IMG/VR virus record: IMGVR_UViG_3300029787_000294
Coordinates: 1-24,499 of that record
Strand: one strand, 5' to 3'
DNA: 24,499 bases
Source of the DNA: a virus
How positions within the stretch are numbered: position 1 is the first letter of the stretch; each line of letters opens with the position of its first letter. The translations under genes were made by a program, and so were the position numbers. A model generated the notes under the pieces. The model searched no databases and was not told the DNA's origin. It saw only the letters and a program-made list of their open reading frames with translations. This document shows, piece after piece, positions 2,412 to 8,476 of the stretch.

Positions 2412-2646
2412 TATAATGTGCCATTGTCTAGATGATACTAGACTAGGTTAAACCTCTACTTGCCAATCATGTGGAAACGCATAGGCTAACTCTAACGCTG
2501 ACCTTATGTCAGTATATTCGTGGGTGTCTTAAAAGGGTGGTAGATATCGACTAGAGCTTCGTGTAATTTTGTCTAGTCAGCCGAATGGATTAATCACTTT
2601 GTAGGTGGTGTAGATATGGCAACATATGTGACAAGCACCACCTATA
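2412..2646 (+). ncRNA. candidate structured noncoding RNA
   Basis: This stretch is less AT-rich than its flanks, has no credible ORF, and begins with TATAAT (2412-2417). Visible helices in order: GTCTAG/CTAGAC (2426-2431 with 2438-2443); GCC/GGC (2462-2464 with 2484-2486) enclosing ATGTG-GAAA-CGCAT (2469-2482, GNRA loop, one G-U pair); CTGAC/GTCAG (2498-2502 with 2508-2512); GACTAGA/TCTAGTC (2549-2555 with 2572-2578); and TAGGTGGTG/CACCACCTA (2602-2610 with 2636-2644) enclosing ATATG-GCAA-CATAT (2614-2627, GNRA loop). Both tetraloops are GNRA only on the plus strand, which sets the orientation. TTGTC (2424-2428) can also pair with GACAA (2630-2634), hinting at an end-to-end closure or an alternative fold. 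It may be an independent RNA or the 5' leader of the 2690 gene. I cannot assign a known RNA class. Confidence 0.5.
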
Positions 2647-3004: not shown

Positions 3005-3652
3005 ATGGGACAACTAAGACATAACGCTTTTGGTGACGTTATACAACAAGTACATCAAAGCAATATGACAGGTAAGTTGATAGGTTTTAAAGCTATTAGC
3101 ACCAACACATTAACTAATGAATACTGTCAAGATATGCACAAGAAAGGTAAAGATATAATCTGTGGTGATTGTTACAGTTATATTATGTTGCAATCTTACA
3201 GAAAGAATATGCAAGCTTGCCTTGAAAGAAATAGTAAGTTGTTAAGTGAAAGTGTATTACATGACCAACAACTACCTACCATTATGGAAATATATTATAG
3301 GTTTCAAGCTCATGGTGAATTGATAAACATGAACCACCTTGTCAACTTGATGAACATTACAAAGAAAAATCCACTTACAACATTTGCATTGTGGACTAAA
3401 CGTAATGATTTAATACAGAAGTATCTCAAGAATAATGAGAAGCCCAAGAACTTAATACTGATATACTCTAATCCAAAAAAGAGTAAGATAATGAGCAAGC
3501 CACCAAAACACTTTGACAAAACATTTAATACTGTGCTAGAACATGAGCATAAAGAATTACAAAATTGCACAGGTCAAAAGTGTAAAGATTGTCTAGCTTG
3601 TTACAAGTTTAACAATATAGATACAATAGTAGAAAAAGTTAAGAGGTACTAA
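3005..3652 (+). CDS. Cys-rich phage protein, Gp88-like
   Basis: 215 residues with eight Cys at positions 41, 53, 56, 72, 188, 193, 196 and 199. The pairs C53-x2-C56 (IICGDCYS) and the C-terminal C-x4-C-x2-C-x2-C (NCTGQKCKDCLACY) look like metal or Fe-S ligands. The middle carries HGELINMNHLVNL, FALWTKRNDLI and LILIYSNPK. This pattern matches what I remember of the mycobacteriophage Gp88-type family, whose function is unknown. The name is from memory. A GGGG ribosome site precedes the ATG by eight bases. The next gene starts one base after its stop, so it is probably cotranscribed with the nucleotidase and methyltransferase. Confidence 0.75.
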   Translation: MGQLRHNAFGDVIQQVHQSNMTGKLIGFKAISTNTLTNEYCQDMHKKGKDIICGDCYSYIMLQSYRKNMQACLERNSKLLSESVLHDQQLPTIMEIYYRFQAHGELINMNHLVNLMNITKKNPLTTFALWTKRNDLIQKYLKNNEKPKNLILIYSNPKKSKIMSKPPKHFDKTFNTVLEHEHKELQNCTGQKCKDCLACYKFNNIDTIVEKVKRY

Positions 3653-3653
3653 A

Positions 3654-4166
3654 ATGATTATATATAGTGATATGGATGGTGTACTAGCTGACTTCTTTAG
3701 TGACCTAGCAGAAAAAAATAATGTTAATCATTGGAAGGAAATTAAAGATATTAACAAGGCACTAGAAGAACTAGCAGGAACTCAATTCTTTAGCCAACTA
3801 CCTACCTTTCATATGATAACTTACCCATTGGTCGGACACTTGAAAGAGATAGAGAGCATTAACAAGTTCATACAATGGGGAATTATTTCTACACCTCTTA
3901 AATGTGATCACGATTGGTCAATCATGCAAAAAAGAAAATGGTTACACTTGAAAAACTTGATGCCAAGCAAACACAACTTACATTTTTTATATGATAAAGA
4001 ACAACTTGCCATTAACAAACTTGATAGTTCACCTAATGTTTTAATAGATGATAAGTATGACAACATAAGAAAGTGGAGAAAAAAGGGTGGAATTGGCTTG
4101 CAATTTCAAGCAACAAAAGATAGTTTAAGTACATTACTAAAACGAATCAATGGGGTGATAACATGA
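3654..4166 (+). CDS. HAD-family 5'-nucleotidase-like protein
   Basis: 170 residues. The N-terminus IIYSDMDGVLADF has the HAD motif I, with nucleophile Asp6 and acid/base Asp8. Motif II is probably GIISTP (Ser79/Thr80), and motif IV is LIDDKYDNI (Asp132, Asp133). The layout resembles the 5'(3')-deoxyribonucleotidase branch (NT5C-type), which removes phosphate from (deoxy)nucleoside monophosphates; the substrate here is inference. It overlaps the downstream methyltransferase by four bases (ATGA), so both are probably made together. It may adjust nucleotide pools for phage DNA synthesis. Confidence 0.75.
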   Translation: MIIYSDMDGVLADFFSDLAEKNNVNHWKEIKDINKALEELAGTQFFSQLPTFHMITYPLVGHLKEIESINKFIQWGIISTPLKCDHDWSIMQKRKWLHLKNLMPSKHNLHFLYDKEQLAINKLDSSPNVLIDDKYDNIRKWRKKGGIGLQFQATKDSLSTLLKRINGVIT

Positions 4167-6983: not shown

Positions 6984-8087
6984 ATGAAGTATACACATAA
7001 AGTAAAACTTAAAGATGGTTCTCATGTCTTTAGATTCGTTCCACCTAAAGATGCAAAGCTTGCAGGTGTGATGAAGAACCATACATTTAGAGATGGTCGT
7101 CAAGCTAGACATGAGATACCTAAGTTGGTGAAGATAGTAGAAGACTTTCGTAAAGGTAAGATACTTGCAGGTAACATCAGCATTAACTCTAATTTTAATC
7201 AAGTGGTTTTACATTATATGAATACTGACCAATTTAACTCTTTGTCGTCTAATTCTAGACGTACCTATGAGTATATACTGAACTCAATATGCAAGACTAA
7301 ATTATTTAGTCGTGATTTGGGTGATATAACCTTGAAATACCTCACTCCTGCCCATTGCTCTACACTTTATGAGCTTTGGGTAAGAGGTGTCAGCATAGAT
7401 AATGCCAATCAAAAGGCTAGAGTGTTCTCAATGCTGATGAACTATTGTATTTCTATTGGATTGGTTGAGTTTAACCCAATGTCAAGGATAAAAAAGAGAA
7501 GACATCAACCTAAATCTATCGTCTGGACAAAAGATCAAGTAGAACTTTTTGTAGAAACTGCTTTCTCTCAATTTAAGTGGAGAAACATAGGTCTACTAGC
7601 CTTGATGTGCTATGAGTGGGGTCAAAGACCTACAGATATTATGAATTTAAAGTGGGATTTTGTTGAACCACCTATTGAAGAAGATACAGGCATAGTAACG
7701 ATCAAACAATCTAAGAGAGGTGCTACAGTTAAGCTACCTATTGAGGATCATTTGATGAAATTACTAACACAACAACATAAGGATTGGTCTTTCCAAGAAT
7801 ATGTAATACCTCATCAGAGGCCTTCTGATGGGTGCTACAGACCTCTCTCTCCAATGCAAGTGTCAACACTTGTGAACGAGATAAAGGCTACATGTGGTCT
7901 TCCTATGGAGTTACAGATAGGATTCCTAAGAAAGACTGCAATTAATGAGATGATTGAGAGTGGTGTAGATCAGTTGGCTATCATGTCTGTGACAGGGCAT
8001 CAGAATGTACAAAGTTTGAACCCATACAATAAACATAATTACGATACTGCAAGATCGGCACTAGACATGAGGAGAGAAAGATGTTAG
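6984..8087 (+). CDS. int: tyrosine recombinase / phage integrase
   Basis: 367 residues, normal integrase size. An N-terminal DNA-binding region (1-70) is followed by a core-binding domain (about 71-170, NQKARVFSMLMNYCISIGLV) and a catalytic domain. Box I Arg is R215 in EWGQRPTDIMNLKW, the beta-hairpin Lys is probably K244 (IKQSKRG), box II Arg is R316 in IGFLRKTA, the second box II position is H339 (VTGHQN), and the nucleophile is probably Y348, nine residues after H339 as in XerD. The first box II His (HxxR) is replaced by Gly313. It presumably integrates and excises the phage. No tRNA-derived attP is visible next to it. It overlaps the next gene by seven bases. Confidence 0.9.
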   Translation: MKYTHKVKLKDGSHVFRFVPPKDAKLAGVMKNHTFRDGRQARHEIPKLVKIVEDFRKGKILAGNISINSNFNQVVLHYMNTDQFNSLSSNSRRTYEYILNSICKTKLFSRDLGDITLKYLTPAHCSTLYELWVRGVSIDNANQKARVFSMLMNYCISIGLVEFNPMSRIKKRRHQPKSIVWTKDQVELFVETAFSQFKWRNIGLLALMCYEWGQRPTDIMNLKWDFVEPPIEEDTGIVTIKQSKRGATVKLPIEDHLMKLLTQQHKDWSFQEYVIPHQRPSDGCYRPLSPMQVSTLVNEIKATCGLPMELQIGFLRKTAINEMIESGVDQLAIMSVTGHQNVQSLNPYNKHNYDTARSALDMRRERC

Positions 8088-8476
8088 AGTTTTTTCTGAA
8101 AGGAAATTATGACGTTACAAAAAGAATTAAAAACAAACTAAAGAAAATAGCAAAGGAAGGAAACAAGAATGCACTTGAAGCTTACAACAAAACAAAAGAA
8201 GGGTACGTTTATATTATCACCAACCCTGCTTGGGAAGGGTGGGTCAAAATAGGTATGGCAGTTGATGCTGAAGATAGATGTAAAGCATTTCAAACATCAA
8301 GTCCTCACAGGGATTATCAGCTAGAGTACTGTGCTTATTTTAACAATAGAAGATTAGCAGAAGATAAAGTTCACAAGAAGATGGTTAAAATATCTGATGA
8401 CAATACATCAGAATGGTTTAAGACAACTGTAGTTGATGCCATCAAAGTTATAGAAAGGGTAGTGTATGGCAGATAA
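8081..8476 (+). CDS. T5orf172 / GIY-YIG-like protein
   Basis: 131 residues. A basic helical N-terminus (DVTKRIKNKLKKIAKEGNKN) precedes a domain that begins GYVYIITNPAWEGWVKIGMA (41-60), with R66 and F70, then QTSSP (71-75) and AEDKVHKK (93-100). This is the pattern of the T5orf172/MUG113 relatives of GIY-YIG nucleases: GYVYI for GIY, VKIG for YIG, then Arg and Glu. It may nick DNA or only bind it; the activity is not known for most members. It overlaps both the integrase and the primase-helicase. Confidence 0.75.
   Translation: MLEFFLKGNYDVTKRIKNKLKKIAKEGNKNALEAYNKTKEGYVYIITNPAWEGWVKIGMAVDAEDRCKAFQTSSPHRDYQLEYCAYFNNRRLAEDKVHKKMVKISDDNTSEWFKTTVVDAIKVIERVVYGR

Follow-up and report, generated by a model that had tools for sequence, protein, structure and literature searches.

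The window analysed here, 24,499 nucleotides (nt) that make up most of the 25,523-base virus record IMGVR_UViG_3300029787_000294 (positions 1 to 24,499), carries a conserved structured RNA near its left end, between two divergent operons. Compensatory changes among homologues show that the plus strand encodes this RNA at positions 2404 to 2644. It is about 240 nt long, contains at least eight helices, and its existence is as good as certain. It is directly followed by one of two complementary arms that bracket the first small gene downstream (gene 1), and comparison of the arms between phages shows that they coevolve privately in each. Taken together, the comparative evidence supports a genuine family of structured RNAs in marine phages that is absent from Rfam, is strongly backed by covariation, sits at a defined place in the phage genome and comes with an unusual bracketed-gene layout. 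The helices, the arms, gene 1 and the two promoter-like sites next to them all lie on the plus strand.

Searches of viral contigs, fetched loci, host genomes and isolated phages place the RNA in six viral contigs, the window's own and five others, with four distinct core sequences in addition to that of the window. A search with a neighbouring gene gave L002 and L003, which are identical to contigs L093 and L137 respectively, and a profile search of loci fetched with the DNA polymerase gave two far more distant copies, L112 and L102. A further copy, with a core identical to that of L112, turned up in L150 in a pattern scan. A covariance model built from four sequences detects the fifth, L102, which was left out of the building, with an E value of 5.6e-22. 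In 1.38 Mb of related phage DNA, this model finds nothing besides L102 below an E value of 0.27; a weak match in record G009 falls within coding sequence and was discarded. A pattern scan of bacteria, in which each of 84,980 species was represented by a single genome, returned three chance matches, all of which fail the model. No copy was found in 80 loci fetched with another neighbouring gene, isolated phages contain no DNA match to either the window RNA or its L112 counterpart, and the collection of papers searched for pelagiphage noncoding RNA yielded nothing relevant.

The sequence-only reading of this DNA had described local hairpins in a gene-free stretch richer in GC than its flanks, and each part of that description holds. 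Five of the hairpins (P1, P3 with its GAAA loop, P4, P5 and P6 with its GCAA loop) lie where they had been placed; no open reading frame (ORF) of at least 50 amino acids falls within the stretch and no coding frame runs across it; and GC content is 38% over 2376-2625, compared with 19-28% upstream and 31-33% downstream. Three further helices, P0, the long-range P2 and P4a, can be added. The core (2404-2578) then consists of seven helices: P0, P1, P2 enclosing P3, P4a and P4, and finally P5. P0 (2404-2408/2416-2420) is a hairpin of 5 base pairs (bp), CGCAT/ATGTG, whose counterpart in L112 has a different sequence yet still pairs (CTTGTA/TACAAG). P1 (2426-2431/2438-2443) has 6 bp and the loop RTGATA, and is poorly formed in L102. 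P3 (2469-2482), capped by the GAAA tetraloop at 2474-2477, is kept in four of the five distinct sequences, is missing in L102 and shows no double change; P1 and P3 are the weakest helices. In the remaining core helices, every cell of the alignment is paired. Both sides have changed in 4 of 5 pairs of P2 (2455-2459 with 2540-2544), in 3 of 6 pairs of P4 (2497-2502/2508-2513, loop CTTAY) and in 4 of 7 pairs of P5 (2549-2555/2572-2578), while P4a (2489-2492 with 2522-2525), which surrounds P4, has one pair changed on both sides and one changed on one side. The 3' hairpin P6 (2602-2644) is built from an outer stem of 10 bp (2602-2611/2635-2644) and an inner hairpin (2614-2618/2623-2627). Its loop (2619-2622) reads GCAA or GTGA in the homologues, in either case a GNRA sequence, and the TGACAA that follows (2629-2634) is invariant.

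Covariation provides strong evidence for this structure. In a four-sequence alignment, made without reference to structure and used for the model, both sides have changed in 13 of 38 core pairs. In the five-sequence alignment, which was fitted to the model and so leans towards it, the number is 14 of 38, and 95% of cells pair, compared with 80.5% in shuffled alignments; none of 500 shuffles reaches the observed value on any of five measures, and structures slid along the alignment pair in 26-51% of cells. For P6 a manual alignment was used, because the automatic one over the full length put this hairpin in the wrong place in L112 and L102. Here both sides have changed in 11 of 15 pairs, and 97% of cells pair versus 68% in shuffles, with none of 2000 shuffles reaching the observed values. 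The structured RNA that the sequence-only reading had proposed at the head of the early genes has thus come through the comparison of homologues. Conserved G-U pairs fit the plus strand only, since they would be A-C mismatches on the other. The RNA is also the best-conserved stretch of its surroundings: between L002 and L003 it is about 94-99% identical, compared with 42-66% for the spacer just upstream and 74-89% for gene 1.

Folding energy alone gives moderate evidence. The plus strand folds better than dinucleotide shuffles (z -2.02, 6/200) and the minus strand does not (z -0.79, 39/200). An advantage of only 2 standard deviations in the window might by itself leave room for chance hairpins without function, but the compensatory changes, the independent match of the model and the highest conservation in the neighbourhood have already refuted that explanation, which is scarcely credible. 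A protein-coding reading was likewise rejected: the stretch has no ORF of at least 50 amino acids, and the homologues differ by insertions, deletions and whole inserted domains. An extra domain lies before P6 in L112 and L102, where it is closed by GGATAA/TTATCC and holds a second hairpin followed by GACAAGG or AACAAGG, like the GNRA hairpin and TGACAA motif of P6.

Two pairings suggested in the sequence-only reading are unsupported, because their complementarity is lost in the more distant homologues. For the end-to-end pairing of TTGTC (2424-2428) with GACAA (2630-2634), GACAA is kept and its partner is CTCTC in L112 and CAATG in L102; for a switch between CTAG-containing arms, the cross-complementarity has disappeared from the same two sequences. 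A pseudoknot between the P5 loop (GGT) and the ACC after P5 was considered and is ruled out by geometry, since a linker of 0-1 nt is too short to span a 7-bp stem. No intrinsic terminator was found at P6, where a T run is absent, and ARAGORN detects no tRNA or tmRNA in the stretch.

A comparison with Rfam had also been proposed, and within the families held by Rfam 15 nothing matched. At the gathering threshold, its 4227 models give no match in the window or in L002-L004, and a relaxed search of the window region (E values up to 10) returns only matches far below the cut-off. Comparative genomics has described other marine or phage RNA motifs, including manA, wcaG, PhotoRC-II and Ocean-V (PMC2864571). 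Like the RNA described here, these are structured RNAs of marine phages or metagenomes with unknown or cis-regulatory function; nothing in Rfam 15, whose coverage of the IMES motifs was not checked, matches the window RNA, and Ocean-VI, which has no Rfam accession in the table of PMC2864571, stands outside that comparison. In L004, a hairpin-rich stretch at about 3300-3750 precedes the first small early ORF. Its sequence is unlike that of the window RNA, it has no Rfam match, and the inverted-repeat scan described below finds no arm pair in it.

The arms around gene 1 had been missed by the sequence-only reading. Arm 1 (2647-2668, 22 nt) directly follows the last hairpin and is complementary at 22 of 22 positions to arm 2 (2969-2990), which lies after gene 1, with only a few bases between its end and the ribosome-binding site of gene 2. 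When all fetched loci were scanned for inverted repeats located just after a TTGAC, the top seven hits were exactly these control regions. The sequences of the arms differ between phages, and in six of six phages, including L105 with its diverged leader, the best partner for arm 1 is the arm 2 of the same phage (scores of 17-22 with the own partner and 6-17 with others). Positions that depart from Watson-Crick pairing are mostly G-U. These deviations are too few to distinguish RNA pairing from protein-bound DNA with certainty, and RNA-RNA pairing is the probable mode of action. The same scan exposed the layout of promoter, arms and small gene in L105/L107, where a hairpin-rich leader (920-1260) does not match the RNA model and may be either a relative that has diverged or an RNA of unrelated origin with the same role; matches of the L105 leader in isolated phages come down to a single 28-base stretch in tail genes and were judged to be chance.

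Gene 1 (2690-2938) begins 45 bases after the last hairpin and encodes a small, fast-evolving protein of 82 amino acids. It is coding, as differences between relatives concentrate in third codon positions. It belongs to no Pfam or PHROG family and has no match in isolated phages. Its profile finds only weak, unrelated matches in PDB, and a structure prediction of low confidence (pLDDT, the predicted local distance difference test, of 57.5) was set aside. Profile comparison does not link gene 1 to the small ORFs that occupy its position in L102, L112 and L105; the RNA is thus kept while the adjoining gene changes or turns over.

Two promoter-like sites, recognised by sequence pattern only, lie in this region. 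The one upstream of the RNA (2359-2387) reads TTGACA-17-TAACGT; TTGAC occupies the corresponding position in all six phages, and the -10 is similar in most. The other (2942-2970), just after gene 1, reads TTGACA-17-TAATGT, with TTGACA kept in all six. The sequence-only reading had offered a leader of the first early gene or an independent noncoding RNA. A promoter-like sequence in front of the RNA and a gene that starts 45 bases behind it support the position of a leader, and either reading may hold.

These features suggest a regulatory RNA derived from a leader, in which the duplex of the arms serves to process or control the early operon, perhaps in the manner of the c4 antisense RNA of phage P1. 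A rough probability for this reading is 0.4 (about 0.35 to 0.4 for the mechanism as stated here). The RNA would be the 5' leader of the first early transcript, starting from the promoter at 2359-2387. In read-through transcripts, arm 1 and arm 2 would form a duplex of 21-25 bp with gene 1 looped out, a length that suits RNase III, so cleavage by this enzyme could free the folded leader with an arm-1 tail. The early operon would then be controlled through pairing of the freed RNA, acting in cis or in trans, with arm 2, which would lie where the next transcript begins and stop a few bases short of its ribosome-binding site. The phage-specific arms would set specificity, that is, immunity.

Parts of this scheme have parallels elsewhere. 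The early mRNA of phage T7 carries RNase III sites, and the likeness lies in long duplexes of an early phage transcript as possible processing sites; here, in contrast, the duplex would form between arms that flank a gene at a distance of about 300 nt and whose sequences are peculiar to each phage. The c4 RNA of phages P1 and P7 is a leader-derived antisense RNA, a processed repressor that acts in trans. It resembles the present case in being complementary to a site further down its own operon, as arm 1 (2647-2668) is here to arm 2 (2969-2990). However, the window RNA is much larger and differently folded, its complementary arm lies outside the folded core, the gene downstream is not a recognised antirepressor gene, and the covariance model for c4 antisense RNA (RF01695) gives no match. 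The c4 RNA of P1 nevertheless provides the nearest working model (PMC8546580).

The main rival is a leader that acts as an antiterminator by binding the transcribing RNA polymerase and making it resistant to termination along the early operon. The model for such an activity is the put RNA of phage HK022, a structured RNA of about 70 nt and two stem-loops located just downstream of an early phage promoter (PMC9378689). The window RNA would occupy a comparable position if the promoter-like sequence before it is active, and its retention while the next gene changes fits an operon-wide effect in cis. Yet with about 240 nt and at least eight helices it departs from put in size and fold, the second promoter-like site after gene 1 would allow the leader to be bypassed, and the arms would have no explanation; antitermination is thus a possible but doubtful account. 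The arms would find a place if the leader acted on gene 1 alone, at the level of translation or stability. It might do so by binding a ligand or protein, while the arms shield the gene-1 message or loop it out. The arms bracket exactly gene 1, which is always the next gene and begins 45 bases past the last hairpin. Such a restricted role is rather unlikely, given that gene 1 is not recognisably conserved among phages sharing the RNA and that no covarying helix covers its ribosome-binding site.

It is also conceivable that a regulator specific to each phage, perhaps encoded by gene 1, binds the arms as DNA operators, and that the RNA is a separate element acting on its own. The second promoter-like site overlaps arm 2 or lies next to it, arms with sequences of their own in each phage would suit immunity groups, and the gene between the arms is variable. 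DNA binding does not predict that imperfect positions are mostly G-U, though, and the arms are not palindromes but lie in inverted orientation about 300 bp apart, with no promoter of its own at arm 1, all of which makes this explanation improbable. The coevolution of the arms would also arise if both bound the same phage-specific protein, and this is one of several points that weigh against the leader-derived regulatory RNA. Gene 2 differs among phages, and arm 2 therefore guards no one particular target. The second promoter-like site has a weak -10 in three of six phages. While the structure follows from covariation, the function is inferred, as are transcription, processing and pairing, from comparative sequence.

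A further, more ambitious proposal is that this new class of phage RNA serves as an immunity and early-switch device of marine integrase-bearing phages that lack a recognised repressor, combining a conserved folded scaffold with a private antisense arm that recognises only the arm 2 of its own phage. This joint claim is speculative and unlikely as it stands. The leader-derived regulatory RNA itself also draws on the integrase, which is present in relatives at 68-87% identity; no HTH_3 or S24 repressor was found in these relatives, records of 53 kb included, which leaves room for RNA-based control without proving it. Two considerations count against it: the integrase may not confer lysogeny on these phages, and several records are fragments, such that a repressor could fall outside the data or belong to another family. 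Private arms predict RNA-based specificity in integrase-bearing phages in which no classical repressor was found here, and if the regulatory reading is true, it bears on how such ocean phages choose between lysis and integration.

The surroundings of the RNA place it between minus-strand genes left of about 1616 and plus-strand genes from 2690 onward. The plus-strand operon contains a GP88-like gene, a 5'-nucleotidase, a C5 methyltransferase and the integrase (6984-8087), followed by a T5orf172-domain protein (8081-8476) that lies between the integrase and a primase-like gene. Frames further right look like primase/helicase, family A DNA polymerase and ribonucleotide reductase, as judged from their sequences and a polymerase search. 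By polymerase, the closest isolated relatives reach at most about 54% identity (Roseobacter phage CRP-6), and a large protein from the minus-strand operon weakly resembles proteins of Roseobacter phages CRP-9, CRP-207 and CRP-603. Facing that operon on the minus strand is a perfect consensus promoter (1769-1742), TTGACA-16-TATAAT with TG before the -10; L002 shows a form of it in which the spacing is 17 nt. An inverted repeat of 23 nt, 87% complementary (1831-1853 and 2077-2099), also lies in the region separating the operons. In this AT-rich spacer, at 1919-1950, lies the element TATCCACGCAGCCCCCAGTGGAGCATGCACTA, which is kept in L002, L003 and L105/L107 with 3-5 differences and in a looser version in L150.
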